64,000 nt of DNA, taken from positions 1-64,000 of IMG/VR virus record IMGVR_UViG_3300002052_000213; one strand, written 5' to 3'. A model generated the notes under the pieces. That model saw only the letters and a list, made by a program, of their open reading frames with translations, had not been told where the DNA came from and did no database searches. Position 1 is the stretch's first letter. Every line of letters starts with the position of its first letter. Below are positions 1,316 to 39,243 of this stretch, in pieces. A program made the translations under genes and the position numbers. Source of the DNA: a virus.

Positions 1316-1852
1316 ATGGCAATTTGTAAAATATGTGTTTCTCCTAACGTACATGAGTACGAGAAATTATATTTAGAGGATAAATATAGCTATACTGAAT
1401 TATGGAAATATGCTAAAATACAAAAGAATGAAGACTTACCTTATGATAGCTTTAGAAGACATATGAAGCTTCATGTAAAAGCTATTATAGAAGCTGGTAA
1501 AGAATTTAGTGATTTGCAAGTAGTAAAGATGAAGGAAGAAATAGACAAGACTATAGAAATATCTAAAAACCTTAGAATGACTCTAGAACCCTTACAATCC
1601 TTCTTACAAAATAAAATAGAAAATTTAAGTGATGAAACGGATAGACAATATCTTGAAGTATTGTTTAGAGGACTATCTGAGATTAGACAGATATACAAAT
1701 TAATATTAGAACATGAAGAACAATTAGATATGGGACCACAGATAGATAAAGATAGATTATATGATCAAGTAATAGAATGTTTAATAGAAGCTGAAATACC
1801 AGACATTTACATATTCAAATTTTCTAAAGCATGGGAACAAAGAGAGAAATGA
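1316..1852 (+). CDS. Probable terminase small subunit with zinc-binding N-terminus
   Basis: 178 residues starting at an ATG preceded by GAGG nine bases upstream. The N-terminus carries C4 and C7 and later H49 and H53 (RRHMKLH), a likely CCHH zinc site; the rest is predicted helical and charged. It lies directly before, and overlaps by four bases (ATGA), the terminase large subunit, the usual place of TerS. A TerS binds viral DNA and loads the packaging motor. Function is inferred from position and general form, since TerS sequences diverge strongly. Confidence 0.6.
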   Translation: MAICKICVSPNVHEYEKLYLEDKYSYTELWKYAKIQKNEDLPYDSFRRHMKLHVKAIIEAGKEFSDLQVVKMKEEIDKTIEISKNLRMTLEPLQSFLQNKIENLSDETDRQYLEVLFRGLSEIRQIYKLILEHEEQLDMGPQIDKDRLYDQVIECLIEAEIPDIYIFKFSKAWEQREK

Positions 1853-4227
1853 TTAATATAAAATTACCAGTAGGATTAACACTACAAGAGAGATTAACTT
1901 TATTGAAATGGAGAGATCCTGTAGTATTTTTTACTGATGTAACTGGAGATCCTCCATTTAAATATCAGGAACAGATATTGAAAGAAATGCCTGACTTAAA
2001 TAAATTAAGATTCCTAATAACTGCTGGTGGAAATACTGGTAAAACTAGATTATTAGCAGATATAGGATTATGGTCTCCTACTATATTAGGTCCAATGATA
2101 ATGGGAAGATCATATTCTGTAATTATAGAGTCTGGATCTCAAGAACAATCTAGGATATTATATGATTATCTAAAGACTTGGATAGAGAGTAATGATTTAA
2201 TAAGTAAATTAGTAAAAGGTGAACCTCTTAAAACTAATACAACATTTAAAGATGGTTCTTTCATAAAGGCTCTTCCTGCATCTTGGAAGTGCTATGATGA
2301 AAAAACTGAAATATTAACTAAAAGTGGATTTAAAAAATATAATGATTTAAAAATGGGAGAGTGTGTAGCTACATTAAATAAAGAAGGATTTCTAGAATGG
2401 CAAGTACCAATAAAATATTTTTCTTATAATTATGATGGACAAATGCTCAAAATAAAAAATAGAACTATGGATATTCTTGTTACATGTAATCATAAAATGT
2501 TAGTTGCTAGAAATCATTCTGATAACTTTGAGTTAATTGAAGCTAATAGTCTTCCAATAGGTGCTAAATTTAAAAGAACTGCTAAATGGAAGGGAAAGAA
2601 GAGAGAATATTTTATTATACCTTCGTACTCTGCCGATCATGGAACTTATATTGAAGAATTCTCAAAGAAAAAAATACCAATGGAAATATGGGTAGAGTTT
2701 CTTGGTTATTATCTTTCTGAAGGAAGTGTAAAAAAGGATAAATGCCATACTATAATTTCACAATCTAAGTTAATAAATCATAATAAATTTGAGAAAATTA
2801 AAAAATGTTTAGATAAGCTTCCGTTCTCATATTCAATATATAAAGAACAGGAATTTTCTATTAATTCCTCACAGCTTGGTCATTTCCTATATCCAACAAT
2901 GGGTTCTTATAATAAGAAGATACCTAAAGAAATAAAAGAATTGGATACTATATATCTTGAAATACTTTTAGATGCTTTAATGCTAGGTGATGGAGTAACT
3001 AATGAAAAACAAAGATGGTATTCTACTGTTTCAGAACAATTAAGAGATGATGTTATGGAAGTAGCTCTTAAGTTAGGGATAGGTAATTCATATTCTTTAA
3101 TTGAGGAAAGAACAAATAAATATGGAAATAAATGTTCTAAACATTTTAAGATTTATCTACATAGACACAAAAATTCATATTATAAAGGACAAAAAGAGGT
3201 AGTAAATTATAATGGAAAAATATGGTGTCTTGAGGTTCCAAATAACACTCTGTTCATTAGAAGAAATGGTAAAACTCTATGGTCTGGTAATTCAATTTAT
3301 GGACAACATAGTGATTTACTTATAATAGATGAAGCTGTAGAGGCAGGTGGAGATCTTATAGATGATAGTATAAGAGTAGTTGGTACATCTCTACATAATG
3401 GAAAAAGTGCAGGTAGAATAATTCTATCTTCTACTCCTCATAATTACATGAGTAAATTTGTTACTATGTGGGAAGATCATAAAAAGTACAATAATTGGCT
3501 AAGAAGAAGTTGGAGTGCTTTAGCTTGTCCTCTATATACTGAAGAAGTTATAGAAGAAGCTAAGAAGAAAGGTAAAATGTATTATGATATTTTCATATTG
3601 GGTAAGCCATATCCACTTATGGGAACTATGATAAATATAGAAGATTTAAAGGATGCAACTAAAGGAAATCCTATATATGTATACAATAAAGAATTTGGAT
3701 ATACTGTTATGGGATTAGATTGGGGATTTGCTCCTGATCCTACTGCTTTAGTTATTATTCAAAGAAATGATAGACAAATAAGAGTATTTTACTATAAAGA
3801 TTACCTTAGAGAAGATCCAGAGAAGATGTGTGACACTATACAAACTTTAGTTAGAAATTATAATGTAGAAAGAATATTTAGTGATAGTCATAATAAACAT
3901 ATGAATGCCTTGCTAAGGAAAAGATCAGTTCCGTTATTTGAAGTATCATTTAAAGGAGAGAAAGGATTGCTACAAGCTAATCTTACTTCATTATTTGAGA
4001 ATGGAGTTATAAAAATACCAGAAGAATATATTAGATTAATATGGCAAATAAGGCAATACACCTATGAAACTAAAGGTGGAGATGATTTCGTAGATGCTCT
4101 TATGTTAGCATGTAAAGATTATAAAACTCAGTATTTAACAGATGATATATATTATAAGAAATTCTCCAGTAGAAAGAAAAAGAAAAGTGGATATCAACAA
4201 TGGGTAGAAAAATATTCTAAACGATAG
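1849..4227 (+). CDS. terL: Terminase large subunit interrupted by an intein
   Basis: ATP-driven DNA-packaging motor and nuclease. The extein has Walker A TAGGNTGKT (about residues 57-65), Walker B LLIIDEA (about 490), and a RuvC-like nuclease with GLDWGFAPDPTA, a second acidic site at IFSDSHNKH and a third at GGDDFVDAL. A 334-residue intein (148-481) sits between the ATPase motifs; the spliced protein is about 458 residues, normal for the family. I chose the ATG at 1849 because it overlaps the TerS stop as ATGA; an ATG at 1831 is also in frame but lacks a ribosome site. The gene ends one base from the converging fibre gene. Confidence 0.95.
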   Translation: MINIKLPVGLTLQERLTLLKWRDPVVFFTDVTGDPPFKYQEQILKEMPDLNKLRFLITAGGNTGKTRLLADIGLWSPTILGPMIMGRSYSVIIESGSQEQSRILYDYLKTWIESNDLISKLVKGEPLKTNTTFKDGSFIKALPASWKCYDEKTEILTKSGFKKYNDLKMGECVATLNKEGFLEWQVPIKYFSYNYDGQMLKIKNRTMDILVTCNHKMLVARNHSDNFELIEANSLPIGAKFKRTAKWKGKKREYFIIPSYSADHGTYIEEFSKKKIPMEIWVEFLGYYLSEGSVKKDKCHTIISQSKLINHNKFEKIKKCLDKLPFSYSIYKEQEFSINSSQLGHFLYPTMGSYNKKIPKEIKELDTIYLEILLDALMLGDGVTNEKQRWYSTVSEQLRDDVMEVALKLGIGNSYSLIEERTNKYGNKCSKHFKIYLHRHKNSYYKGQKEVVNYNGKIWCLEVPNNTLFIRRNGKTLWSGNSIYGQHSDLLIIDEAVEAGGDLIDDSIRVVGTSLHNGKSAGRIILSSTPHNYMSKFVTMWEDHKKYNNWLRRSWSALACPLYTEEVIEEAKKKGKMYYDIFILGKPYPLMGTMINIEDLKDATKGNPIYVYNKEFGYTVMGLDWGFAPDPTALVIIQRNDRQIRVFYYKDYLREDPEKMCDTIQTLVRNYNVERIFSDSHNKHMNALLRKRSVPLFEVSFKGEKGLLQANLTSLFENGVIKIPEEYIRLIWQIRQYTYETKGGDDFVDALMLACKDYKTQYLTDDIYYKKFSSRKKKKSGYQQWVEKYSKR
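2290..3291 (+). mobile_element. Intein with LAGLIDADG homing endonuclease inside terL
   Basis: The intein begins with a Cys (CYDEKTEIL, splicing block A) and ends with LWSGN before an extein Ser. Block B appears as ILVTCNHKMLV with the TxxH pattern. Two LAGLIDADG-type motifs are seen, FLGYYLSEGSV and LLDALMLGDGV, so an intact homing endonuclease is likely. The penultimate residue is Gly, not the usual His, which is known in some inteins and can slow C-terminal cleavage. Insertion is just before the Walker B strand, a conserved site, as homing elements prefer. Confidence 0.9.
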
Positions 4228-4228
4228 A

Positions 4229-6592
4229 TTAAATATCATACAATACTTCTATATCACATGTTCTTCCATCTAAATCTGCTGTTAGATATATGTTTGTAGC
4301 ATCAGAAGCTGAACTACGCCATATTCTCCCATCACTTGTTTTTAATATATTTATTTTAGTTGGTGTCTTTTCTAATTCATGTGCAATTGTAGTTTCTGTA
4401 GAATTAACAGTTTTATTGGTAAGATAATTTTCTGTATCATATCCTTCATTATGTCTTATCTTTGTATTAGTACCTAAATCTCTAATTGCAGAAGCCCAAG
4501 TACCAGTAAAAACATTATGCTCTATTAGTGTTTCATCTGCTGCTGATAGAATATAAAGACCATAATTTTGAGTCATTGTTCCTTCTGATATACTTGTATT
4601 TCTTAAAATGTTTCTATCTCCGCCAATATAACAACCATAGTTGTTATATTCACAATTAAGTACCTTAATCTCTAATACGTTATCATCTCCATCAACACCA
4701 AATCCATAATGACTAAAATGATCATAAGTAAATCCTCTTACGTTATTAGAATCTCCACCTGAAGTAAACATAATACCAATTTGAGTATTTCCATGTGATA
4801 TAATGTCTAATTCATTATTAGAACCATTAATCTCTACTCCTCTTAAAGCATTACCATAAGAAACAATCTTACCACTACAATAACTATCAACATAAACTCC
4901 ATCATTAGCATTTTTATAAGATATTATATCAAGTTTAATGTAATCATTAGCTAAAATACCATATAGAGTATTCTTCCAAAATCTACCAGAAACAAATCCA
5001 TTTATAGCATTAGCATAACATCCATATTGAGTATTATGGTGTGCATTAGCATCAATAACATATCCATATTCTCCTTCTATTTCAAACCCATGTTCATCAT
5101 TAGCATAACTCTCACATCCTTCAGCAACACCATACTTACTTACTATAACTCCTCTTCCACCACAAAATGAAAATTTACATTTTAATAGAGTCCCTGCCAT
5201 TCTATAAGTACCATCATTATTCCATTTTCTAATTCTACAATTATCAAGTGTAGCTTCAGAACTAACACAAACACCATATTGTACACCAGTATTATTATCT
5301 CTATTACCATCAATAACTAGATTGTACATTATAGAGTCATCACTTATAGAAATAAAGAATGTTACTGTACTATTGTAGCTATCAACTAATTTTATAGTTG
5401 CAAACTCTGATTCTATTATTAGTCCATATTGTACTTCAAATATTGGTTTGGTAGCACTATCTGGTGTTACAGAATAACTATCATAATTTATAAATATTTT
5501 ACCTTTCTCAGGCATATCAGTACTAGCAATAGCATTAGCAATATTATCTTCTATTATTAACATAGGTTGACCATTACCTTCAGAAGAATAGGCAACATAA
5601 ACTTCTAATTTATTATTTGGAAACGTATCTCTATTTATAGTGTCAGTTATGATTGAAGGTGTATCTATCCAACCACTTGTACAATAATGTGCAATACCAA
5701 GAAATTCCCTAGAACTTGGATAAAATTCTGGATTATTATCTTTCCATAATTCATAAACACCTTCATGTCCAGAATCATAATATCTACTAACTAATAAATA
5801 ATAAATACCATTATATTTGAATGGGTGGGAACAAAATCTTCTACCATCAAATAAAGGAGCAGGTTCTTGTAAAGTCCAATCTATTAAATTTGTACAAGTT
5901 AATAACCAAATACTTCTGTCTCCACCAACAGAATTTGCAAATAGATAATATGTAGAACCTACTTTTATAATACCACTTGGATCTTGACATCCAGTTTCAT
6001 CTATAACTGGATTACTTCCAGACTTTGACCAATTTACTCCATCAGATGAAATAACTAATCCTATTTTATGTGCTCCACCAGATGATCCTCTATAAAGAGC
6101 ATACCAATCTGTTCCTTCTTTCCAAGGAACCATTACAGCAACACCATCTTGATCCCATCCACTAGCTCCAGCTTCTAATACTGGATTATTAACTGTATCA
6201 TTTGTCCAATCTACACCATTACTAGAGGTACAATGACCAATAGCAAATTTAGTGTTATAAGTGTAAGTGTAATATCCATGATATGTAGTTCCATCATACC
6301 ATACATACATGAAAATACCAAATGTATGAACTGGTGAACTTTGTTCTAATGCCCATGAATTTGATATATCATGAATTTTCTTAATAGTTTTACGCATAGT
6401 ATCTTTAAAATCTGTACTAGTTGCTGTTGAGTAAATCTTTCCTGCTTGTTCGGATTCATGACCATGTATTGCTTCAAAGTTCGATCCATTTCTTCTAATG
6501 ATAAAAGTAAATGATTTTTCTAATCCATGATCTATAACAGCATCTAATCCTTCCTTTGAACTTGGTATTTTTCCTTTATTAAATTCACTCAT
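4229..6592 (-). CDS. Tail fibre/receptor-binding protein with GH43-like beta-propeller and beta-helix
   Basis: 787 residues. About residues 80-340 show repeated blades of the five-bladed glycosidase propeller type (IGHCTSSNGVDWT, GLVISSDGVNWSK, CQDPSGIIKVGSTYYLF, CSHPFKYNGIYYLL). About 380-730 are short Asn/Gly-rich repeats of a right-handed beta-helix, and the last 60 residues form a compact head. This architecture is common in fibres that bind or cut sugars on the host. Asp residues in WDQDGV and CQDPSG may belong to a glycosidase site, but activity is not proven. It is last in the leftward virion operon. Confidence 0.75.
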   Translation of the reverse strand: MSEFNKGKIPSSKEGLDAVIDHGLEKSFTFIIRRNGSNFEAIHGHESEQAGKIYSTATSTDFKDTMRKTIKKIHDISNSWALEQSSPVHTFGIFMYVWYDGTTYHGYYTYTYNTKFAIGHCTSSNGVDWTNDTVNNPVLEAGASGWDQDGVAVMVPWKEGTDWYALYRGSSGGAHKIGLVISSDGVNWSKSGSNPVIDETGCQDPSGIIKVGSTYYLFANSVGGDRSIWLLTCTNLIDWTLQEPAPLFDGRRFCSHPFKYNGIYYLLVSRYYDSGHEGVYELWKDNNPEFYPSSREFLGIAHYCTSGWIDTPSIITDTINRDTFPNNKLEVYVAYSSEGNGQPMLIIEDNIANAIASTDMPEKGKIFINYDSYSVTPDSATKPIFEVQYGLIIESEFATIKLVDSYNSTVTFFISISDDSIMYNLVIDGNRDNNTGVQYGVCVSSEATLDNCRIRKWNNDGTYRMAGTLLKCKFSFCGGRGVIVSKYGVAEGCESYANDEHGFEIEGEYGYVIDANAHHNTQYGCYANAINGFVSGRFWKNTLYGILANDYIKLDIISYKNANDGVYVDSYCSGKIVSYGNALRGVEINGSNNELDIISHGNTQIGIMFTSGGDSNNVRGFTYDHFSHYGFGVDGDDNVLEIKVLNCEYNNYGCYIGGDRNILRNTSISEGTMTQNYGLYILSAADETLIEHNVFTGTWASAIRDLGTNTKIRHNEGYDTENYLTNKTVNSTETTIAHELEKTPTKINILKTSDGRIWRSSASDATNIYLTADLDGRTCDIEVLYDI

Positions 6593-12158: not shown

Positions 12159-15100
12159 TTAATATCTACCTCCTACAGAAAACATGTCTTTAGTTATTAT
12201 CCTTTTAATTTCATTAGCTAATATACTTATATCTTTCTCTTCTCTTATAACTGGATAATTTATAGTTATAAATATATTTTGTCCTTGAGGAGCTGTCATA
12301 GGTTCTACTGGTTTTACATATACCGAATTAGGAGATCCAAAATCACTTCTCATTCCCTTTAATTCATCAATTTCCTTTTTAATTTCACTCTTTAATTCAG
12401 TAAATTCCCCTACCCAGAAAGGTCTAGTATTTTCTGCTATTTGCTCTAACCATCTTAAGTAAGGTTGATATGTAGATATAAATGATAAATATTGAATCTC
12501 TGCTCCACCACTTTCTACTTCCGTTGATATATCTCCTACAAATTCATCTGCCATTAAGGAACTAGTTCTATATCTATTTGCTGTTGCATTTCTCAACGTC
12601 ATAGATTCTCCTACCAATCTAGTTGTATCAAGAGCAGTAAACGATAAATCTTCTATACCTGTTAACATTAATTTATTTTTTCTACCTTCAATATCAAATT
12701 CTCTAGATACCAATTCTTGAGTTACAACTTGTGTTAACATAGGTAATTCTGGAATTGTAGTAGGTATTAATATTTGAGTTATCACTTGTTCCTTATCTAA
12801 TATTTCAGGTATTGTTGTAGGAATCAATATTTGTACTATTTCTTGTTCTTTATCTTCAACTTCTGGAATAGTCACTAAATCTAATTCTTGTCTTATCTCC
12901 TGAGTTAAAACTTCTGGTTGAGGTATAAATGCTGGATTTAAATATTGAGTTATAGTTTGTCTTAAATCTCTTACTTCAGGTAGCATTCCTATTTCTACTA
13001 ATCTTTGTATAATCAATTGTTCCATATTCTCTGGAACTGGTATTTCAGCTTCTATAAGAGTTTGTTCTATAGTTTGCATAAGGTTATTTGGAGGAAATAT
13101 TCTTACTTCTATCAATCTCTGTTTTATATCTTGGGTAATATCTTCTGGAATAGGAATTTCAACTGTATGTAATATTTGTTCTATTATTTGTTGTTGATTA
13201 CTTACTGGAGATATTTCTATAGGTTCTAATGTTTGCACTATACTTTGTGTTAAATCATCAACCATAGGAATAAATACTTTTATCAATTCTTGAGATATTA
13301 TCTGTTTCTGATCCTCTACTTCTGGAATTCTAGCTACTTTCAAGTTTTGAACAATAGTTTGTGTCATATCCTCTACGTTTGGGATATCTACTTCATTAAG
13401 AATTTGTGTTATAGTTTGTGTTATATTTTTAATACTAGGTATTTCAATTGTTTGTAACTCTTGAACTATTCTCTGAGTAACATCTTCTAATTCTATCTCT
13501 GGAATTTCAGCTTGTATAAGTTCTTGTGTAATTATTTGTTCCATGTTTCTTGGTTCCATAATGTCTACTTCAACTAAAGATTGAATTATCTGTTGAGTTA
13601 AATTCTCCACTCTAGGTATTCTAGTTTCTATTAATTCTTGTGTTATAAGTTGATTCATGTTTCTAATATTTGGTATTTCTACCGTTTGTAATTGTTGAAC
13701 TATAATTTGAGTTAAATCTTCTATTTCAGGTGTCTGTACTTCTATTAGCTCTTGTCTAATGATTTGTTTTAAATCTTCTACTCTTGTAGGTCTAACTTCT
13801 CTTATTTCTTGTATTATTCTCTGAGTTAAATCTGGTACATTAGGTATTTCAGCTTTATCTAGAACCTGAGTAATTCTCTGTCTTATATCTTCAACTCTAG
13901 GAATATCTACTTCTTCTAATCTTTGTCTAATTTCTTGTACAATGTTATCTACTATTGGAATCCTAGCTTCAATTAATCTTTGAGTAATAGTTTGGATAAT
14001 ATCTCTAGGTTCAGTAATATCTGCTTCATCTAATTCTTGAGTTATACTTTGAATTAATTCTTTAGGAATAGGAATCTCTACTGCATCTAATACTTGTGTA
14101 ATAATTTGAGTTTTATCTCTGATTCTAGGTATTTCCGTTTCTCTTAATATCTGTGTTATATATTGTATTTTATCTTCTATAGTTGGATATTCTGCTAATG
14201 TAAGTTCTTGTATAATTTCTTGATATTGAGCACTCGCTTCAGGTATATCTACTGGTATAAATTCTTGTGTAATTCTCTGTCTTTGATCACTTATAGTTGG
14301 TACATTAACTCTTATTAGTTCTTGTTCTATTATTTGACGCATATCTTCTACATCAGGTATAGGAACTTGTATTAATCTTTGTGTAATAGTTTGTACTATA
14401 TCTTGTATTTCTACTTCTGGTATCTCTGCTGTTCTTAAATGTTGTCTTATTATTTGATCTACATTCTCTACTGTTGGAATCTCCACTTCTCTAAGTTCTT
14501 GAATTATAGTCTGTGTCATGTCTTCTTTAACAGGTATTTCTATCTCTTCAAGTAATTGATAAATAGTGTAAGTTTGATCTTCAACTATAGGTATATCAGG
14601 CATTACTCTACCTAGAGTTTGGAATATGAATTGAGTTTGATCTTGTACTTCTGGAATTTCATAAGGAACTAATACTTGAAGTATTTCTTGATGAGGTACT
14701 TCAGGTATTTGTGTTTCTATTAATTCTTGATATATATTTTGAGTTATATCTTGTAACTCGGGAACTTCTATTTCTTCCATTATTGGAAATATTGTTATTA
14801 CTTTCTCTATATCTCTAATTTCAGCTAATTCTAGTCTTTTTACTTCATCTCCTAAACTCTTTACTTCAGTTGTACTTTCTTTCAAAGCACTTACTAAAGA
14901 ATCTTCAATAAGAATATCTTCCCAACTTTTTGTAGTTCCTATTCCTTGCTCTATTTCTTTCATCATATTTCTCATTTCTTTTTTCATTCTTTCCATTTCA
15001 CTAGTTGCATAAGCTTGTGCTATTGCTAATGATATAAATGTTCCAACTAAGAATGTTCCAATTCCTAAAACTACAGACATCGCAAATGCAGCTCCCATAG

Positions 15101-16832
15101 AAGAAGTTTGTAAGTAATTCATCATACCACTTAAAATACCAGTTTTTCCTGCTGCTACAATTGCTGAATCCCCTGCTTTATCTTCCATAAATGCAGTAAG
15201 ACTTACTTGAACTGCTGCTCCTGTTGCTTGCTTACCAGTAAGTCCTAATGTTCCACCAAAAAAAGCTTCTTTCATAGATGCTGAAATTGCACTATCTCCT
15301 GCCATGCCTTGTAAGATACTTAATTTCATTAAGAAATCCATTACAGTAAGTCCTGTTCTTATCATTGTTGGAAATGCTCCAAATATTAGCATTCCCCAAG
15401 ACATAGCATACTGGAATGCACTTTGTCTAGCTGATTCTAACGTAGCTTTTAATGCAAACTGAGCTTCCTTTACTCTAATTGTTGCTTGTCTAGCTTCTTC
15501 TGATCCTGCTCCATATTCAAACAATATTTCATTATATTCTCTTTGAGCTTCAGATAAACTCATGGCAGATCTAGTTAAAGACCAAGATTGTCTTTCCATT
15601 TCTACCTCTCTTCTAGTCATTCTAGCTATGCTCATAGCAGTAAACATCATTCCTAATCCAGCCCAAAATATGTCTCTAGTAAATTCTCTCATTACTACTC
15701 CAGTAGCACCTATACTTGCCATAAATCTTCTTTGTACTTCAGATATTTCTCTAAGTCTTATTCTCATAAATCCTAGTTGAGCTATCATTTCTTTTGCAGG
15801 TTCTACTCCACCAGTTAATAATGCTCTCCTGAAATCTCTAAACTCTGTAGCTCCTATACCTACTTGATTCATAGTTATCTTAAAAACATCAGACCAGTAT
15901 TTCCATATTTGACTAGATGTAAATCCAGCTTCATTTAATTTATCTAATGTTCCTTGAATCATTCCTACAGCATCACTAACAGTAGCTATAGGTCTATGAA
16001 ACTTTTCTAATTCGGTAAGAAAAACTTTAAGTCCGAATACTCCTTCTTCTTTAAATATCTTAATTAAGTCATTAGCTACTGGAGAAGCTATTTCCATTTG
16101 TTTCATCATATTTTTAAGTGAGCCACCTAGATATTCCATAGTCTTATTAAACTCTAATCCAGCTACACTAACAGATCTTAAAACTCTAAATATTGTTGTT
16201 ACTCCTTGAGAGAAAGATGTTATAGGTTGATTTAATGCTTTATAACTTTCAAGTAGAACAGCATTTCCTTCTGCATCTTTCTTTATTGATTGATTTAATA
16301 TGTTAACTCCTTGTTCTAACGATATAAGATCTTTATTAAAAGCTGTAAAAGCATTTGAAGTATAACCAGTTCTTAATCTTAATTTTTCCATAGCTTCTAC
16401 TGCTGGACCAAATAACTCTTCCCATGCTCTCATCTCTTCAAGATTTTTTCTAAGTTTTGGAACAAATTTATCGAATGATAATCCACCTAGACGTAATGTT
16501 TTGATATGAGCTAACATCTTTTCACTTGCATTCTCTATAATTTCTAAATATTTAGTCCAGTGTCTTCCAGCAAATTCAGTATTAGTTACTGTGTCTTTAG
16601 CTAATTCATTTATTCCTGCAGCTAAAGCTGGATCAAGTTTAGGTCTAGTAAATCCTTCTATAATAGGAGTTGCACTTCTAGCTACTTTAGCTAAATTAGA
16701 TACTCCAGTACTAACTTTTGCACTAACTGTATTAATTTTCTCTAGACTCTTAGCTAATTCACCTACTTCCTCAGCACCTGTTACACTAGCTAATATTTTT
16801 ACATTTATTACAACATCTTCAGGAGTACTCAT
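12159..16832 (-). CDS. Tape measure protein with about 36 copies of a 19-residue repeat
   Basis: 1557 residues. It sits between the tail chaperone genes and tail hub, and has the usual hydrophobic stretches (about residues 385-420, 480-500, 590-625) of a tape measure, which sets tail length and helps DNA entry. Residues about 689-1376 are some 36 tandem units of the form IPxVEDxTQxIxQxLxxVE, nearly all 19 residues. I start at the ATG at 16832, seven bases behind GAGG; the ATG at 16838 is too close to that site. The DNA copies are diverged, so the pattern is kept by selection on the protein. Confidence 0.9.
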   Translation of the reverse strand: MSTPEDVVINVKILASVTGAEEVGELAKSLEKINTVSAKVSTGVSNLAKVARSATPIIEGFTRPKLDPALAAGINELAKDTVTNTEFAGRHWTKYLEIIENASEKMLAHIKTLRLGGLSFDKFVPKLRKNLEEMRAWEELFGPAVEAMEKLRLRTGYTSNAFTAFNKDLISLEQGVNILNQSIKKDAEGNAVLLESYKALNQPITSFSQGVTTIFRVLRSVSVAGLEFNKTMEYLGGSLKNMMKQMEIASPVANDLIKIFKEEGVFGLKVFLTELEKFHRPIATVSDAVGMIQGTLDKLNEAGFTSSQIWKYWSDVFKITMNQVGIGATEFRDFRRALLTGGVEPAKEMIAQLGFMRIRLREISEVQRRFMASIGATGVVMREFTRDIFWAGLGMMFTAMSIARMTRREVEMERQSWSLTRSAMSLSEAQREYNEILFEYGAGSEEARQATIRVKEAQFALKATLESARQSAFQYAMSWGMLIFGAFPTMIRTGLTVMDFLMKLSILQGMAGDSAISASMKEAFFGGTLGLTGKQATGAAVQVSLTAFMEDKAGDSAIVAAGKTGILSGMMNYLQTSSMGAAFAMSVVLGIGTFLVGTFISLAIAQAYATSEMERMKKEMRNMMKEIEQGIGTTKSWEDILIEDSLVSALKESTTEVKSLGDEVKRLELAEIRDIEKVITIFPIMEEIEVPELQDITQNIYQELIETQIPEVPHQEILQVLVPYEIPEVQDQTQFIFQTLGRVMPDIPIVEDQTYTIYQLLEEIEIPVKEDMTQTIIQELREVEIPTVENVDQIIRQHLRTAEIPEVEIQDIVQTITQRLIQVPIPDVEDMRQIIEQELIRVNVPTISDQRQRITQEFIPVDIPEASAQYQEIIQELTLAEYPTIEDKIQYITQILRETEIPRIRDKTQIITQVLDAVEIPIPKELIQSITQELDEADITEPRDIIQTITQRLIEARIPIVDNIVQEIRQRLEEVDIPRVEDIRQRITQVLDKAEIPNVPDLTQRIIQEIREVRPTRVEDLKQIIRQELIEVQTPEIEDLTQIIVQQLQTVEIPNIRNMNQLITQELIETRIPRVENLTQQIIQSLVEVDIMEPRNMEQIITQELIQAEIPEIELEDVTQRIVQELQTIEIPSIKNITQTITQILNEVDIPNVEDMTQTIVQNLKVARIPEVEDQKQIISQELIKVFIPMVDDLTQSIVQTLEPIEISPVSNQQQIIEQILHTVEIPIPEDITQDIKQRLIEVRIFPPNNLMQTIEQTLIEAEIPVPENMEQLIIQRLVEIGMLPEVRDLRQTITQYLNPAFIPQPEVLTQEIRQELDLVTIPEVEDKEQEIVQILIPTTIPEILDKEQVITQILIPTTIPELPMLTQVVTQELVSREFDIEGRKNKLMLTGIEDLSFTALDTTRLVGESMTLRNATANRYRTSSLMADEFVGDISTEVESGGAEIQYLSFISTYQPYLRWLEQIAENTRPFWVGEFTELKSEIKKEIDELKGMRSDFGSPNSVYVKPVEPMTAPQGQNIFITINYPVIREEKDISILANEIKRIITKDMFSVGGRY
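12703..14765 (-). repeat. 57-bp coding repeat array in the tape measure gene
   Basis: About 36 units encoding IP-(x)-[VI]-x-[DN]-x-x-Q-x-I-x-Q-x-L-x-x-x-x. A few units differ by one or two residues (for example those containing IPEVEIQDIVQ and IPEVPHQEILQ). The total span is about 36 times 57 bp. Units are similar in protein but not identical in DNA. Confidence 0.9.
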
Positions 16833-16851
16833 ATTCATCCCTCATATTATA

Positions 16852-17429
16852 TTATATTCTCCTAGTTTTAACTTTTGTCTTTCCTCTACCAGAAGGTCTT
16901 CTTCTTTGTTCTTGAGTTTTACTCTTTAATTTAGCCTCTTCAGTCTTTATCATCATGTTTAACCATGCTATCTGAAGATCTGTTCTACTTAAGAAATCTT
17001 CTTTAGCTTGTTCCCAAGAAAAATCTTTAAGCTTTAAGTATTGGTAGAAATCTTTACTTAAATTGCCCTCTGCTGTTGTAAAAAATCTCTCATAGACTTT
17101 CTAGTTTTCTCTGTTAACTTAGTAACTCTTTGGCTCCAATCCCAAGTCACAGCTTCTAAGATTGCATCTATTTTTGGAGAAGGACAATCTAAATATTCCT
17201 TGTATGTAATTTTAGGTTCTACAAGCATTTTAAGAGCCAATCTATTAGATATTTCTGTGGCTTGTTCAATGTCACTCATATCTTTCCATAAGGGACTTTT
17301 CATTGCTTCTTGTCTAACTTCTATTTTATCTCTAGTTGTGGGATCTCTAACTTTTACAGTAATATCTAAACTCTCTATTGGTAGATCTCTAGGTTCATTA
17401 GAGAGTAATTCTTGTAAGGTTATTTCCAT
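16852..17429 (-). CDS. Frameshifted tail assembly chaperone (gpGT-like long form)
   Basis: If ribosomes slip back one base at 17085-17079, the 117 residues up to DFL continue in the -1 frame as TTAEGNLSKDFYQYLK and end with KTKVKTRRI at the TAA at 16852, a 192-residue protein. The extension has no good start of its own and normal viral codon use. This is the G/GT arrangement known between tail tube and tape measure genes in tailed phages. The extension is helical, then very basic. Confidence 0.75.
17058..17429 (-). CDS. Tail assembly chaperone, short form (gpG-like)
   Basis: 123 residues, between tail tube and tape measure, the classic chaperone place. The start is the ATG at 17429, three bases behind the tail tube stop. 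The sequence is mixed alpha/beta with a helical C-terminus (SMRDFLQQQRAI). The stop lies 18 bases after a slippery heptamer, so most ribosomes should make this form and a minority the longer one. Confidence 0.75.
   Translation of the reverse strand: MEITLQELLSNEPRDLPIESLDITVKVRDPTTRDKIEVRQEAMKSPLWKDMSDIEQATEISNRLALKMLVEPKITYKEYLDCPSPKIDAILEAVTWDWSQRVTKLTEKTRKSMRDFLQQQRAI
17079..17085 (-). promoter_or_regulatory. -1 frameshift slippery site T TTT TTA
   Basis: In the frame of the chaperone gene the codons read GAT TTT TTA, so the heptamer is in correct X XXY YYZ register. After a -1 slip the frame stays open for 75 codons. Confidence 0.75.
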
Positions 17430-17432
17430 ATT

Positions 17433-18299
17433 TTACCACTGAGCTATACTGGTGTCGTCAACTATTTGAATACCTCTAGTTGCTGCTGTTGATGGCATAG
17501 CTATCCAAGTGAACTCAACTTCATATACATCATGTCCAGTGAATTCATCTGGTAGTTCATTAAACCATATAGAGTTACAGTATATTGATAAACTACCTCT
17601 TCCTAAGCCCATAACAGTTATAGTAAGTTCATGTCCACCCTGAGTAAAGTATTGGATATCTGCTTGTCCACATGTAATTCCACCAGTAACTTCCAATCTT
17701 TGTTCTCGAATCTTAGTTGGTTGTTTTCCTTGTCCACATGCATATCTTGATTCTAGGTTGTTATTAAATTCTACATATCCACTTTGTACTTCAGTTAAAG
17801 CATTACCATCTAATTGTACAATTACAGATGCTCCTGTCATAGCTTCTACAGACCAATCAGTATCTCCAGCTACTGCTATAGTTTCAGCTATAGTTCCTAA
17901 CATTTCCATTTCATAAGTAACGAATTCACCTGCTGAAAAATTAATTCTTAATCTGTCACACTTAGCTCCATGTATAGTTAAACTATCTGATTCTGATTCT
18001 GCACTTACAGTACATTCTGGAATATCTGTTAGAACAGTAATTGTACTTGGATTAGCATCTAACCATGCAGGATTAACACTTCCTAAAGCCAAATAAAATG
18101 GTTTACCAGACACAAGTTCTGCTTCTATTCTTGCAGTATATTCTTTAGCTCCTTCAGTAATGTCAACATCAAATCTTGTTCCAGATGCTACTTCCTGCTC
18201 AATTAGATTAAATACTTCACTTGCTTCAAATGATATTGGAAAGTTTACTATAGTTCCACCTAGTCCTGCTGCACCAGTAATACTAACTTTTCTTGTCAT
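17433..18299 (-). CDS. Major tail tube protein
   Basis: 288 residues, beta-rich, with an own TATA box and a strong GAGGAG ribosome site, fitting a highly expressed protein. It sits directly before the chaperone pair. The protein has a GAAGLGGTI start and repeated short beta strands; Cys residues (CGQGKQ, TCGQAD, YCNSIW) occur. The C-terminal strand (YEVEFTWIAM) is typical of tube proteins. Assignment rests on gene order and general form. Confidence 0.7.
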   Translation of the reverse strand: MTRKVSITGAAGLGGTIVNFPISFEASEVFNLIEQEVASGTRFDVDITEGAKEYTARIEAELVSGKPFYLALGSVNPAWLDANPSTITVLTDIPECTVSAESESDSLTIHGAKCDRLRINFSAGEFVTYEMEMLGTIAETIAVAGDTDWSVEAMTGASVIVQLDGNALTEVQSGYVEFNNNLESRYACGQGKQPTKIREQRLEVTGGITCGQADIQYFTQGGHELTITVMGLGRGSLSIYCNSIWFNELPDEFTGHDVYEVEFTWIAMPSTAATRGIQIVDDTSIAQW

Positions 18300-24033: not shown

Positions 24034-26262
24034 TTAATCTTCATCTAATATTAATTGCATAAACATCTTCCTAAAATCTTTTTCTCCTGTTAAACTTAAA
24101 GTTTCTACAGTTGGATATACATTTGTACTTAATAGAGATAATTCTGCAATATCTTCAAATATAGTATGACTTAAAATTGATAGACATTCACTTGTTTCTC
24201 TATATAATATTCCTCTTAATGATAATTCCAAAGTTAAATATTTCTGTACAGTTCCAATTATTTTTAATGTACTTTGTATAGGAGCAAACATATCTCCTTT
24301 TATTAGTAATTTTATTTCATATCTTTCAGTGTAGATTGCTCTTCTACGAGGTACTCTCCTTCTTACTCTTCTTGGAGGAGCTACTGCTTCTTCTCCTTCT
24401 AAAATAGCATCTGTAACTATTGTTCTAGTTTTAAGTAAACTAACTAAGAATGAATCTGTTTCTATAATTCTAGTTCCTATTTTCTTTAAGACACCATCAG
24501 ATTCTACTATTCTTTGAGATATTATTTTAAGTATACTATCAGTTAGAATTTCTCTACTGTAAATGCCTTTTAATATACTGTCAGTGTATATTATTCTTTC
24601 TAATGTTCCTGTTAATATTGCATCAGATAATATTGTTCTCTGGAATATACCTTTAAGTATTGAATCTGTTAATACTGTTCTTTCTAATGTTTTATATAGT
24701 ATGGAATCTGTTATTAGTTCTTTACTTAATGTACCCTTTAGAATGGCATCAGTGATTATAGTTACTCCTAATCCAACAATGTAAGCATCTGTTACGATTG
24801 TTCTCTTAGTTATAGTTTCCTCTAAATATGCATCTGTAACAAAATCTCTAATTTCAGTCTTTGATAGAACACTATCAGTTTCTATTTCTCTAGAAAATAC
24901 ACTTTTAAGAATAGTATCTGATTTAAGTGTTTTTTCTATTGTTGAAAGTAATATAGCATCTATTGATATATCTCTAGTTAAAGTTCCTATTAAAATACCA
25001 TCAGTTAAAAGTGTTCTAGTTAATAACTCACTAAGGATTACATCTGTTAAAATACTTCTTTCTTTTATACTTTTAAGGACACTATCACTAAGAATTATTT
25101 TTACAAATCTGTTTATTATATATGCATCTGTCTTTATTGCTCTAGTGTATATTCCTTTTAGTGTGGAGTCAGATAAAATAGTTCTTATAAATCTATTTAC
25201 AAGATAACTATCAGTTTGAATTTCTCTTATTGAAGCTAATTGCAAAATAGAATCTGATAATATTTCTCTAGAAACCGTTTCTAGTAAATAAGCATCTGTA
25301 TAAATTTCTCTTACAGGAACTGATACAAGATTAACATCTGTGAGAACATCTCTAGTGGAAGATAACTTTAATATAGAATCAGATAGAGTATCTCTTGTTA
25401 GTGTTTTAATTAAAATACTGTCAGTTACCATATCTCTGCTTGTTATTCCAGTAAGATTAGCATCTGTTAATAGTGTTCTTGTATATTGTCCTTTTAGAAC
25501 TGCATCAGATAAGACATCTCTACTTAACGTACCTTTTAGTATAGCATTAGATTCTATTGTTCTAGATACTATTATTTTTAATATAGCATCAGATTCTATT
25601 TCTCTTTGTGTTGTTTGTTTTAATACACTATCTGATAAAACTGTTCTAGTTAATCTATTTACTAAATAACTATCAGTTAAAACTTCTCTAATGGAAGATA
25701 TTAATAATATACCATCAGTTAATACTTCTCTTTCTCCTTGTTGCATTAATATTGCATCAGTAAGAACTTCTCTTTCATATTGGACAGCACCTTCAGTATA
25801 ATAAACTGTTACTTGACAATAATCTGCTCCCCAATATGCTCCAGATTTACCATCAGCAGTAGCTGTTATTCTTATTCTAAAATTAGTTGATTTTATATGT
25901 GCTCCTGTCCAAGTTCCATTCCAATTATCTTCAGCACCACCAAGTATTTTATCTACACAATCAGCACAAGTAGAACCTGTACCTGGATCAGTAACTTCTT
26001 TTAATACCCATGTATCAGTCGAATCTTTAAGTTCTACATCAATATCATCATCTGTATCTCCAGCTATACAATGTATTAATACTTCAATTCCATCTATAGT
26101 TGCTCCATCTGACATCACAGAGAAATTAAAACTAAATTCACCAGATACTGCATTCTTATTACCAGATGTACAACTTCCACTATGAGAACCTATAAAGTTA
26201 GATTCATTACTCCAATTACCTGCAGCTTGAAGAGTAGTAGCATTTCTAGTTTCACTTGCCAT
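24034..26262 (-). CDS. Virion-type protein with 33 copies of a 14-residue repeat
   Basis: 742 residues. Residues 1-160 are a beta-sandwich-like domain with several Cys (CTSGN, HCIAGD, CADCVDK) of the type found in surface decoration proteins. Residues about 163-625 are 33 tandem units of 14 residues, pattern R-x-[ILV]-x-[ST]-D-[AS]-[IVY]-L-x-x-x-x-x, probably one beta turn or hairpin each. A Pro/Arg-rich linker (PPRRVRRRVPRRR) and a beta-rich end follow. Likely a fibre or rod on the capsid or neck; no known family is recognised. Confidence 0.65.
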   Translation of the reverse strand: MASETRNATTLQAAGNWSNESNFIGSHSGSCTSGNKNAVSGEFSFNFSVMSDGATIDGIEVLIHCIAGDTDDDIDVELKDSTDTWVLKEVTDPGTGSTCADCVDKILGGAEDNWNGTWTGAHIKSTNFRIRITATADGKSGAYWGADYCQVTVYYTEGAVQYEREVLTDAILMQQGEREVLTDGILLISSIREVLTDSYLVNRLTRTVLSDSVLKQTTQREIESDAILKIIVSRTIESNAILKGTLSRDVLSDAVLKGQYTRTLLTDANLTGITSRDMVTDSILIKTLTRDTLSDSILKLSSTRDVLTDVNLVSVPVREIYTDAYLLETVSREILSDSILQLASIREIQTDSYLVNRFIRTILSDSTLKGIYTRAIKTDAYIINRFVKIILSDSVLKSIKERSILTDVILSELLTRTLLTDGILIGTLTRDISIDAILLSTIEKTLKSDTILKSVFSREIETDSVLSKTEIRDFVTDAYLEETITKRTIVTDAYIVGLGVTIITDAILKGTLSKELITDSILYKTLERTVLTDSILKGIFQRTILSDAILTGTLERIIYTDSILKGIYSREILTDSILKIISQRIVESDGVLKKIGTRIIETDSFLVSLLKTRTIVTDAILEGEEAVAPPRRVRRRVPRRRAIYTERYEIKLLIKGDMFAPIQSTLKIIGTVQKYLTLELSLRGILYRETSECLSILSHTIFEDIAELSLLSTNVYPTVETLSLTGEKDFRKMFMQLILDED
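24388..25773 (-). repeat. 42-bp coding repeat array, 33 units
   Basis: Units such as REVLTDAILMQQGE, RTLLTDANLTGITS and REILTDSILKIISQ follow without gaps; only three are 13 or 15 residues long. The span is 33 times 42 bp. Copies are not identical in DNA. Confidence 0.9.
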
Positions 26263-31958: not shown

Positions 31959-32813
31959 TTACATATATCCTAGATATCTAAGACGTTCCATAATCTTATC
32001 TTTTTGTTTTCTTCCTTCTCTCTCTCCACCAGATGAAACATTTATTTCATATTGAAAATCATCTATTGTTGTAGCTTTACTTTCTATTGGAGTAGTACAT
32101 TGCATACATCCTAAACTTCTAAATCTTAGACCATCTTTAGAGAAATATAAAGGATTAACTGGAACATCATATGTTTTAATATATTCCCAAATATCTAATT
32201 CGGTCCAATGTAATATTGGATGTACTCTTACATGCTCACAATCTTTACCAAAATCTGATTGATATAGTTCCCATAGTTCAGGTTCTACTAAAGACACTAA
32301 AGGAGCATCTCCTTCTTTAAGTTCTTCTTTAGTCTTCTCTCTAACTACTTTCCATTCCCACATATGTGTTCTTGGGCTAAAATAATGTTCTTTACTTCTT
32401 ACTCCTAATTCATCCCATCTTATACCTAAAATAGCAGCATCATAATGTTCTTTCTGAAATAATTCCTTTAATGCCATAGTTTTTCTACACATACAACAAT
32501 TAAATATTCCATCCTCACTTTCTAAATCTATTTCCTTACAATCTTCTTTCTTAGCTATCTTTAGTGGTATATGCCACCCAGAGGATATCATATCTCTGAA
32601 CTTATACATTTGAGGAAATAATTTACCTGTATCTATATGTACTATATCAAATGGTATTTCATAAAACATATTAAATATCATATGTAACAATACTGTACTA
32701 TCTTTACCAGTACTCCATAACATACATGGTTTCTTGAATCTAGCTTTAGCTTCTCTTAGAATAAATTCTGTTTTACTTATTAAACTTTTTAAATCTCTAT
32801 AGTAATATTTCAT
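31959..32813 (-). CDS. cysD: CysD-like PP-loop ATP sulfurylase/PAPS-reductase family protein
   Basis: 284 residues. The PP-loop MLWSTGKDSTVLLHM, HIDTGKLFPQMYKFRD, the ending RFRSLGCMQCTTPIESKATT and EREGR follow CysD, the catalytic subunit of sulfate adenylyltransferase, along nearly the whole length; the family also contains PAPS reductases. CysD makes APS from ATP and sulfate. The GTPase partner CysN, APS kinase and a sulfotransferase are not visible in the window, so it may use host partners or do another nucleotide reaction. It is last in the sugar cassette. Confidence 0.75.
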   Translation of the reverse strand: MKYYYRDLKSLISKTEFILREAKARFKKPCMLWSTGKDSTVLLHMIFNMFYEIPFDIVHIDTGKLFPQMYKFRDMISSGWHIPLKIAKKEDCKEIDLESEDGIFNCCMCRKTMALKELFQKEHYDAAILGIRWDELGVRSKEHYFSPRTHMWEWKVVREKTKEELKEGDAPLVSLVEPELWELYQSDFGKDCEHVRVHPILHWTELDIWEYIKTYDVPVNPLYFSKDGLRFRSLGCMQCTTPIESKATTIDDFQYEINVSSGGEREGRKQKDKIMERLRYLGYM

Positions 32814-33612
32814 TTAACTCAACTTCTTTTACTATAATATTTCCTTCATATTCGTATGATATAGCTACTTTATTTCTTCTTCCGAAACATGGATATGCTG
32901 ATATAACGAAATCTTTAGTTCTTATAACTTTATCCATATTTAAAATATTAAAGATATTATCACTAGACAATATTCCTTCTCCTTGAAAAGTTAATGGATG
33001 AGAACTCCATATTGGAACATGTAAAGTTTCTTCATCAAAATGTTTCCCTATTGGAAACTTATATTTTTTTAAATCTGTCTTTGAACCATGATCTGAAGTA
33101 ATTACAATATTATCAAATATTTCTCTATATTTTTCTATAATAGGATTAATTTCTCCATAACAGAATTTAAGTTCTTCTTCATATGTTTTATGAATGAAAT
33201 GATGTTTACTCATTACAAAATGTCCTCCTCTTAGATGAATAAATATAATTAATGATTCTTCATTTACAGTAACATTAATGTCCTTTTCTATTTGTTTTAT
33301 AATTTCTTTTTTAGATGTATTTACATTAATTTTACTTAAAATTGGAAGGAAAGAATATTTTTTACTAATTTTATAATCATCAAAGATAGTTCTATAGGTA
33401 TGAAAACACATTCCAGCTCTCCATATTTTTCCTTTATCTTTAATAGAATATAAAAGAAGTTCAGGAGTTGTTAATCCAGTTATCATTGAAAATATAGATG
33501 GAAGAGTCCAATTACAATTAGCTATACATTCATATTTATAAAAATCTTTAAAATTTAAAATGTGCGAATAAGAATAATTAACAGCATCTAAAACAACAAA
33601 TAAAGTTCTCAT
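32797..33612 (-). CDS. Alkaline-phosphatase-superfamily protein (first of three)
   Basis: 271 residues from the ATG at 33612, which overlaps the FkbM stop as ATGA and has GGGAG before it. LFVVLDAVNY holds the first metal Asp, CNWTLPSIFSMITGL the nucleophile site, and IVITSDHGS the late metal ligands. The nucleophile is Thr, not the Cys/Ser in CxPxR that sulfatases convert to formylglycine, so phosphotransferase or phosphodiesterase activity is more likely. It may add or remove a phosphate-linked group on a glycan. Confidence 0.65.
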   Translation of the reverse strand: MRTLFVVLDAVNYSYSHILNFKDFYKYECIANCNWTLPSIFSMITGLTTPELLLYSIKDKGKIWRAGMCFHTYRTIFDDYKISKKYSFLPILSKINVNTSKKEIIKQIEKDINVTVNEESLIIFIHLRGGHFVMSKHHFIHKTYEEELKFCYGEINPIIEKYREIFDNIVITSDHGSKTDLKKYKFPIGKHFDEETLHVPIWSSHPLTFQGEGILSSDNIFNILNMDKVIRTKDFVISAYPCFGRRNKVAISYEYEGNIIVKEVELNEILL

Positions 33613-34238
33613 TTTTTCTCCCAATATGGTCCAATATTAGTAAACCCTTCTTTATTTAATATTTTAGTACATACTCCCTTTGCTCCACTATGCCAAGAAA
33701 TAAATAATTTCATTTGAGGATTATTTCTTAACAAATTTATCATTCCTGGTATAGCATATCTTTCTGCTCCTTGAATATCTAGTTTAATTAAATCTAAACG
33801 ATCTTTAATTATTTCATCTAGTGCTATTACTCTATATTTACTCCAAGGAGGATATGTTCTACCTGGAGGTGTAGAATGTTGTAAATCAGATAATCCAAGA
33901 CACAATGGTATTACATTTTTAAATCCATTAATAAAGGTAGCAATCATTAACCTAGTAAAATGTTTATAATATGGTTCAAAAGCATATACTATTCCTGTAT
34001 TTTCCATTTTCTTAGCAGCTAAGAATGCATAATATCCAGTTTGTGATCCACCATCTACCACTATCATATCCTTCTCTACTACACCTTTCCAAGATTCTGA
34101 TTGTCTATTTTCCCATCTACCTGAATTTGCTATTGATTTTTCACTTGATCCTTTACTAGTTTTAGAGAAGCAATATTTAATTCCAAAGTGTTCTATTATT
34201 TCATAATCATCTAGAATTGTATTTGAAATTTTATTCAT
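33609..34238 (-). CDS. FkbM-family methyltransferase
   Basis: 209 residues. MIVVDGGSQTGYYAFLAAKK is the SAM-binding loop, followed by YAFEPYYKHF, VIALDEI and LIKLDIQGAERYAIPG, the sequence of the FkbM family, which O-methylates sugars and small molecules. It overlaps both neighbours and probably methylates a sugar built by this cassette. Confidence 0.8.
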   Translation of the reverse strand: MNKISNTILDDYEIIEHFGIKYCFSKTSKGSSEKSIANSGRWENRQSESWKGVVEKDMIVVDGGSQTGYYAFLAAKKMENTGIVYAFEPYYKHFTRLMIATFINGFKNVIPLCLGLSDLQHSTPPGRTYPPWSKYRVIALDEIIKDRLDLIKLDIQGAERYAIPGMINLLRNNPQMKLFISWHSGAKGVCTKILNKEGFTNIGPYWEKK

Positions 34239-35004
34239 TTAAATCAACTTCTAACCAAGGAATTTCCAATAGAGTTCTATATTGATGCAAATCTGGTCCA
34301 TGACCTACATAACCATTCTCTTCAGGAAATCCTAATGCTTCTCCATGATCTGAGCTTATTACTACTTTCTTATTCTTAGGAATTTCTTTTAATAAATTCT
34401 TAACTTCGTCTAATATCAATATCACATTGCTGATATATCCTTCTCTACATTCATCTATGCTTAAATTTCCTCTTTTAACATAATCCCACATTATTCCCTG
34501 AAATCTCTTTCTTTCATCTATATTCATTTCCTGTAAATGTTTCTTTTCTTTGTTTTCTGTCCATTCTAAAAGAAGTCCCCTTCCTTTATTTCCTTGTGGA
34601 TGTTCTAACCAAGGAAAGTGAGGTTGTAAATAATGAATTATTATTCTTTTATCTGGATATTTTTTAATTGTATTTATACCTATTCTAGTTATAGTATCTG
34701 GTCTTACTCCATTTAACTCTTCATCCCATCCTATATCCCAAGCATCTACAATAGTAAAGAAATGCTCTCTATTTATTTTACTTAATTTAAAATTCGTAAC
34801 CATAGGATTTCCAGATACATATATTAATTCAGGGTATGGTTTAGTGAAGTTATCTCTTAACCACATCCAAGTTCCAGTATTAAGAGATTCTACTTTCTTT
34901 AATTTGCCTTTAATATTATTAAACATCTCAAATACGTCATATCTCATAGCATCTAACAATATTAAAATATCCCATTTCTCTTTCATAACTTTTATTTTTT
35001 TCAT
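34231..35004 (-). CDS. Alkaline-phosphatase-superfamily protein (second of three)
   Basis: 257 residues. ILLDAMRYDVFEMF is the N-terminal metal site, IIHYLQPHFPWLEH the middle, VVISSDHGEALG and GHGPD the C-terminal site. It is a clear paralogue of the gene at 39244. A Thr in the TGTWMWLRDNF region is the likely nucleophile. The ATG overlaps the preceding stop as ATGA. Similar proteins occur in archaeal surface-polysaccharide clusters. Confidence 0.7.
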   Translation of the reverse strand: MKKIKVMKEKWDILILLDAMRYDVFEMFNNIKGKLKKVESLNTGTWMWLRDNFTKPYPELIYVSGNPMVTNFKLSKINREHFFTIVDAWDIGWDEELNGVRPDTITRIGINTIKKYPDKRIIIHYLQPHFPWLEHPQGNKGRGLLLEWTENKEKKHLQEMNIDERKRFQGIMWDYVKRGNLSIDECREGYISNVILILDEVKNLLKEIPKNKKVVISSDHGEALGFPEENGYVGHGPDLHQYRTLLEIPWLEVDLNE

Positions 35005-35567
35005 TTTAACATACCTATTTTAGTTTCCAATTCTTTTATAATATTTTTTACTTTATTTAAATTTTTAGATAATATAGTTATTCCATGCCTCTTACTATAA
35101 GAAGTAAATTCATATTTATATATATTAGAAAATAATTCAATTGCCTTTAATTCTTTAGGGTTTATAGTTGTATTTTTCATCACTATAAACCCATCTTCTT
35201 TAAGAAGATTATGTATAAGTGTTAATTGTTTAAAGTAATGAGATTTATCTGAATTTAGATCTAAATCAACAAAGCACATATCTACTTGAATATCTAAATT
35301 AGGAAGAACATCTAAATCATATCCTTCTATAAATTTCCAATGTGGATGATTTTTATATCTTACAATAAATTGTTTTCCTCTTCCATTATCTATACTATAT
35401 AATATTCCCTCTAACCCTAATAACATAATCCTTGTTGATCTACCAATACCTATTCCTAATTCTAAAATAGTACCATTTCCTATAGATTTAGCTAGTTCAT
35501 ATAATAGAATACCATGTTCATGTAAATAATCTCCACCTATTCTACGAATTTTATTATAAATTTCCAT
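35001..35567 (-). CDS. Class I SAM-dependent methyltransferase
   Basis: 188 residues with ILELGIGIGRSTRIML (SAM loop), LYSIDNGRGKQF, DMCFVDLDLN and a TLIHNLLKEDGFIVMKN strand, a Methyltransf_24-like arrangement. The substrate is probably a sugar or sugar nucleotide because of the neighbours. It overlaps the aminotransferase gene. Confidence 0.75.
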   Translation of the reverse strand: MEIYNKIRRIGGDYLHEHGILLYELAKSIGNGTILELGIGIGRSTRIMLLGLEGILYSIDNGRGKQFIVRYKNHPHWKFIEGYDLDVLPNLDIQVDMCFVDLDLNSDKSHYFKQLTLIHNLLKEDGFIVMKNTTINPKELKAIELFSNIYKYEFTSYSKRHGITILSKNLNKVKNIIKELETKIGMLK

Positions 35568-37912: not shown

Positions 37913-37923
37913 TTATATCCACA

Positions 37924-38895: not shown

Positions 38896-39242
38896 TTAAC
38901 TTTACTCCTAAGTTCTTCATCAGTTATTGTTTCTTTATTAGGTTCCCACCATTCCATTATCCAATTATCAGCTTTAGATTCTAGAAGATGCGGAATATTG
39001 GGAGGGCAAACTATCATGTTTCCTTCTTTTAATTCAAATCTTATATCCTCTTTAGGATATTTATGAATAAATATTACTTCACCTTTAAGTATCACTCTGT
39101 ACTCTAAAACATTATGTGAGTGCCCACCTCTTAGATATCCTTTCTTAGTAAAGAATATCATAAGCTCTTGTAAAGGATCATCTTGTAACCTAAAAGAATA
39201 AACTTCTCCTCTCTTATCACTTTGTTCTAATTTAAATCTCAT
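38892..39242 (-). CDS. Cupin-domain protein
   Basis: 116 residues. GGHSHNVLEYRVILKGEV and the later CPPNIPHLLES are the two cupin metal-binding motifs. In sugar clusters such proteins can be isomerases or simple binding proteins; the exact role is not visible. Confidence 0.75.
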   Translation of the reverse strand: MRFKLEQSDKRGEVYSFRLQDDPLQELMIFFTKKGYLRGGHSHNVLEYRVILKGEVIFIHKYPKEDIRFELKEGNMIVCPPNIPHLLESKADNWIMEWWEPNKETITDEELRSKVK

Positions 39243-39243
39243 A

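Follow-up and report, generated by a model that had tools for sequence, protein, structure and literature searches.

A predicted G/GT programmed −1 frameshift at T_TTT_TTA in the tail assembly chaperone gene of a probable archaeal tailed virus

Frameshifting from the tail assembly chaperone gene G into the overlapping frame T (G/GT frameshifting) is standard in long-tailed phages. We analyzed 64,000 nucleotides of viral DNA (positions 1 to 64,000 of the IMG/VR record IMGVR_UViG_3300002052_000213, hereafter the window), and the chaperone gene of this stretch very probably undergoes a programmed −1 frameshift of the G/GT kind in what is likely a virus of archaea. In lambda gpG/gpGT, the gene order is tail tube, G, T, and tape measure, T lies in the −1 frame, and the slip occurs near the end of G (PMC5009743). 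A −1 shift on UUUUUUC has been predicted in the G analogue of Bacillus phage SPP1, with gp17.5 and gp17.5* as the products (PMC6316719). In archaeal viruses, −1 G-T frameshifting has been predicted in HVTV-1, HCTV-1, HCTV-2, and HCTV-5 and +1 frameshifting in HSTV-2 (PMC5009743, PMC8211752), and +1 frameshifting has been discussed for the HF1 group (PMC7230728). A review names S. solfataricus fucA1 as the sole archaeal case of −1 frameshifting with experimental proof (PMC8211752).

The genes at the locus were arranged on the minus strand in the order tail tube, G, T, and tape measure, with the following features.

17058 to 17429, minus strand: G, the 0-frame tail assembly chaperone open reading frame (ORF), 123 amino acids, ATG to TAA (from the ORF and an AlphaFold2 model)
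17079 to 17085, minus strand: slippery heptamer T_TTT_TTA in exact 0-frame register, 18 nt before the G stop
16855 to 17079, minus strand: T, a 75-codon extension in the −1 frame (from codon usage, frames, and structure prediction)
17433 to 18299, minus strand: major tail tube protein gene, immediately 5′ of G (phrog_290, E 3.9e-12; tblastn matches to tail tube or minor tail proteins of Bacillus, Geobacillus, and Marinitoga phages)
12159 to 16838, minus strand: putative tape measure protein gene, 1559 amino acids, immediately 3′ of T (from length, position, and a weak match to phrog_167, tail length tape measure, E 0.008)

The G ORF started with ATG at 17429 and ended with TAA at 17060–17058, and its last codons were ATG AGA GAT TTT TTA CAA CAG CAG AGG GCA ATT TAA, with a run of six T residues at 17080–17085. 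The nearest −1-frame stop 5′ of the heptamer lay a few codons upstream, and the two frames overlapped over 13 codons. At its other end, the −1 frame was closed by TAA at 16854–16852, leaving a gap of 13 nt to the tape measure ORF (start 16838). The first start-type codon in the open −1 frame was the ATG pair in 'LNMM', approximately 40 codons into T; neither ATG, GTG, nor TTG occurred earlier. The coordinates of the locus, the register of the heptamer, its distance of 18 bases from the stop, and the length of the extension had all been given correctly in the initial annotation.

To assess coding quality, a codon-usage score was trained on the other genes of the window and compared over 75-codon stretches. 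The T extension scored 0.214 bits/codon, within the range of in-frame gene windows (0.286 ± 0.115), and none of 460 out-of-frame control windows exceeded 0.031; the two other frames of the T stretch scored −0.30 and −0.23. This result bore out the normal composition that had been ascribed to the −1 frame. Because the score was gene-like and above those of all the out-of-frame windows, translation of the T extension into protein is almost certain. Chance does occasionally produce open frames this long, but the coding score all but refutes a chance frame without function, and the position of the extension and its recurrence in relatives, described below, also speak against it; we regard its probability as negligible. 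Another possibility was that T is a separate protein started within the −1 frame, either by a nonstandard codon or by the ATG pair in 'LNMM', and a T-like ORF in the record of Marinitoga camini virus 1 is indeed annotated with its own start. However, the coding-like composition was measured over all 75 codons, about half of which precede any usual start, and initiation in 'LNMM' would yield just a short basic fragment. A separately started T is thus very improbable at this locus.

In-register heptamers of the X_XXY_YYZ type were found 99 times in 20,214 codons, corresponding to a chance of approximately 6% for any such heptamer in the 13-codon overlap, and T_TTT_TTA was found in register twice in the same number of codons (approximately 0.1%). 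Other gene pairs of the window also overlapped, and their long extensions mostly coincided with the next listed ORF, with an own start present. At the G locus, a coding T was open in the −1 frame across the end of G without a start of its own, and a canonical heptamer stood in register in the overlap.

G and T were modeled separately, G with AlphaFold2. The G model, built from an alignment with 12 relatives, had a mean predicted local distance difference test (pLDDT) score of 77.8, and its best matches among solved structures were YqbN (3klu; Z 7.3 over 89 residues) and the HK97 tail assembly chaperone (2ob9; Z 7.2 over 90 residues). RBSTP2171 (3fgx; Z 5.3) and a protein of a phage-inducible chromosomal island-like element (5ir0; Z 4.6) followed, and clearly unrelated chains appeared from Z 3.1. 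The model thus assigns G a tail assembly chaperone fold at moderate Z scores, its alignment having included the G proteins of relatives, among them the Bacillus phage group. BFVD gave weak matches to G (best E 0.005), among them tail assembly chaperones from Halobacterium phage ChaoS9 and from Bacillus phage Gemini. T alone was predicted with low confidence (pLDDT 65) to form three helices with a basic C-terminal tail.

The record from which the window was taken is a 65,235-bp virus record with a GC content of 27–33%. Two of its genes bear on the host.

61252 to 62229, plus strand: archaeal-type RadA/Rad51 recombinase (PF08423, E 1.2e-29; archaeal RadA the best match in PDB)
52482 to 54932, minus strand: family-B DNA polymerase (PF00136, E 2.9e-38; best matches in haloarchaeal tailed viruses)

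The 20 best matches listed for the polymerase were all from haloarchaeal tailed viruses, and the window also encodes an ATP-dependent DNA ligase. Because of the RadA/Rad51 recombinase, the ligase, and a family-B polymerase nearest to those of haloarchaeal tailed viruses, the host is likely an archaeon. A scan of genome contigs with RadA returned nothing, and a scan of genome contigs with DegT gave as its best match a Nanoarchaeota metagenome-assembled genome (33% identity) among diverse bacteria, a result not informative on the host.

Distant relatives were reached by way of the tail tube protein and by way of RadA. In one RadA-carrying virus contig (L037, contig G003), the G gene had 114 codons and an in-register C_CCT_TTA, and the −1 extension lacked an early start. 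The same heptamer, again in register, and a comparable −1 T were present in a second contig (L064, contig G009), which carried RadA and a family-B polymerase. The G proteins of this pair were 45% identical. The heptamer was identical in both, whereas the codon before CCT differed (CTC and ATC), as did nearby synonymous positions, and over the whole G gene only 26 of the 48 identical residues used the same codon. In L037, a gene resembling HNH-type homing endonucleases (5854–6477) separated T from the tape measure gene. Loci L061–L063 had A_AAA_AAA in register with a −1 T, and the Bacillus and Geobacillus phages Andromeda, Riggi, and GBK1 had A_AAA_AAA or A_AAA_AAG with a −1 T. In Methanobacterium phage psiM2, a methanogen virus (L045, approximately 13700–13950), ORF19 contained A_AAA_AAG in register, and an unannotated T-like −1 extension preceded the tape measure gene. 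As a positive control, the method recovered the annotated join of HCTV-1 at the published G_GGA_AAC (PMC5009743). T was in the +1 frame in another bacterial-phage lineage (L003 and L018–L032), as was the T-like frame of Drs3 (L048, after 23657).

One RadA- and family-B polymerase-carrying contig differed from these. On the minus strand of G002:C1:32000-46000 (L036, 8520–7524), two G-like genes lay side by side, each with a start of its own, and encoded 156 and 174 amino acids. The two proteins were alike (BLASTP E 3e-8), and the second had an extra C-terminal part that was T-like by eye. In this contig, gene duplication appears to replace the frameshift.

The recurrence of the split in relatives also bears on the level at which the shift takes place. 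RNA polymerase slipping on the T6 run could add a base to some transcripts, and the fusion would then be read from altered mRNA; the run is present, and from sequence alone this process looks the same as ribosomal slippage. However, C_CCT_TTA and G_GGA_AAC in the relatives contain no run longer than three, and these two and A_AAA_AAG are all tandem-tRNA heptamers of the X_XXY_YYZ form in register. Since the heptamers are in register and two of them lack long runs, the relatives point to ribosomal slippage, and slippage by the polymerase is improbable here.

Several results weigh against a programmed ribosomal frameshift at this locus or leave it less well anchored. Scans of IMG/VR with G, the tail tube protein, the tape measure protein, and the terminase found no close relative, and the conserved heptamer that was seen is C_CCT_TTA of the distant pair L037 and L064. 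Neither tblastn searches of the tape measure and capsid proteins against phage records nor comparison of the same two proteins with RadA-carrying contigs gave a match. The G protein of the window had no significant sequence similarity to the G proteins of the relatives, and profile-profile comparison of its G and T with the Bacillus-type G and T was not significant. For T, the profile score was reached by 31% of shuffles with a first profile, by 0.9% with a second, which included the newly found relatives, and by 4.9% with an archaeal-leaning one; these comparisons no more than hint that T is homologous to other T domains. The RNA around the slip site contained one candidate element.

17033 to 17067, minus strand: weak predicted hairpin, approximately 12 nt 3′ of the heptamer (extent approximate; z about −0.7)

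The hairpin was no stronger than those of shuffled sequence, and its relevance is doubtful; no Shine-Dalgarno-like motif was evident upstream of the heptamer. Finally, loss of one base from a T7 run would give an identical picture, and the window comes from a single contig. If sequencing, assembly, or a recent mutation had dropped one T, the true gene would be one fused ORF with nothing programmed. However, T6 is short for a homopolymer error of this kind, and independent records, isolate genomes among them, show the same split with in-register heptamers. Because the split recurs with different heptamers, both polymerase slippage and a dropped base are unlikely explanations for this contig, the latter slightly more so.

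Taken together, we consider it highly probable that the locus belongs to an archaeal tailed virus and encodes a programmed −1 frameshift of the G/GT kind. The G/GT interpretation proposed in the initial annotation is supported by what was observed directly: the gene order, a coding extension without its own start, the register of the heptamer, the chaperone-like fold of G, and the layout that recurs in relatives. The archaeal virus that it had thought probable is well supported by RadA/Rad51 and by the polymerase. In the search of relatives that it had suggested, −1 extensions and in-register heptamers recurred, and no close relative with T_TTT_TTA was found. Neither a separate T gene with its own start nor loss of the heptamer, which it had named as contrary outcomes, was seen in the −1 lineages, although in L036 the long form is a paralog encoded apart from G and started independently.

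The frameshifting itself, its rate, and the roles of the products as chaperones are inferred. The majority of ribosomes would terminate at the TAA at 17060–17058 and produce G. A minority would slip by −1 on U_UUU_UUA, with the P-site Phe tRNA moving from UUU to UUU and the A-site Leu tRNA from UUA to UUU, and would translate 75 more codons to give a G-T fusion of approximately 192 residues. The predicted junction of GT is DFLTTAEG if both tRNAs slip and DFFTTAEG if the P-site tRNA alone slips, and the corresponding junction-spanning peptides are DFLTTAEGNLSK (or DFFTTAEGNLSK). If the products act as in lambda, the tape measure protein would be coated by numerous G and a small number of GT molecules, T would recruit the tail tube protein, and G and GT would both depart from the finished tail.

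Other features of the window were also recorded. The end of the tail tube gene (17455–17430, minus strand) reads AGTATAGCTCAGTGGTAAAATATGG and resembles the 5′ half (D arm) of a tRNA; no tRNA (ARAGORN), tmRNA, or Rfam match was found in the window. The large subunit of the terminase (1831–4227, plus strand) contains an intein with a LAGLIDADG match at approximately residues 154–488, the best matches of which were in Lak phage and phage ribonucleotide reductase genes. A 742-amino-acid protein (24034–26262, minus strand) consists mostly of many short REVLTDSILK-type repeats and is probably a virion fibre or surface protein. At 31959–42052 (minus strand), there is a sugar/sulfur cluster with a PAPS reductase-like protein, a DegT aminotransferase, a radical SAM protein with a B12 domain, a sugar epimerase/dehydratase, a weak sulfatase match, and two glycosyltransferases; so many genes of this type are unusual in a 65-kb virus.

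A wider reading, possible but less likely to hold than to fail, is that in a low-GC, RadA-carrying lineage of archaeal tailed viruses the ratio of G to GT is set by −1 slips at heptamers with Leu UUA in the A site (U_UUU_UUA and C_CCU_UUA), apparently without strong RNA structure, and that L036 swapped the slip for duplicates resembling G and G-T. If so, an HIV-type site would cause slippage of archaeal ribosomes, and L036 would provide a natural before/after pair for the loss of recoding. The separate paralogs of L036 suggest that evolution preserves two forms of the chaperone rather than the slip. The published viral −1 cases in archaea are predictions from halophiles, and a plain U_UUU_UUA in an archaeal virus of low GC content, together with related contigs carrying other heptamers, broadens the known range; the short, simple cassettes found here suit archaeal translation tests. 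The statement that such frameshifting is rarely documented in archaea was fair, but the phenomenon is not new, having been predicted in HVTV-1, HCTV-1, -2, -5, and HSTV-2 (PMC5009743, PMC8211752), with the psiM2 case standing unannotated. The interest of the locus is moderate and lies in the scant documentation of archaeal cases and in the loss of recoding through gene duplication that L036 suggests.

The locus adds a case to the known G/GT kind, already predicted in a few other archaeal viruses. With lambda, the window shares by analogy the gene order, a −1 T, and a slip near the end of G, whereas the host is probably an archaeon and the heptamer is T_TTT_TTA. SPP1 likewise has a U6 heptamer in its G analogue, and the residues shared by the two products number 112 in SPP1 and approximately 117 in the window; the A-site codon is UUC (Phe) in SPP1 and UUA (Leu) in the window, and the host of SPP1 is bacterial. 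The Andromeda group of Bacillus phages and Geobacillus phage GBK1 have a homologous tail tube protein and a −1 T of approximately 80 codons after G, but their A_AAA_AAA or A_AAA_AAG lies 0–3 nt before the stop, their hosts are bacterial, and their G and T are deposited as separate coding sequences. S. solfataricus fucA1 is also a case of archaeal −1 frameshifting, in a gene for a cellular enzyme. The methanogen virus psiM2 resembles the window in its in-register heptamer and in the T-like −1 extension that precedes the tape measure gene, whereas its heptamer lies 57 nt before the stop and that of the window 18 nt. HVTV-1 and HCTV-1, -2, and -5 are, like the probable source of the window, archaeal tailed viruses with a predicted −1 G-T shift, a likeness of layout, and HCTV-1 further shares RadA and a family-B polymerase with the window.
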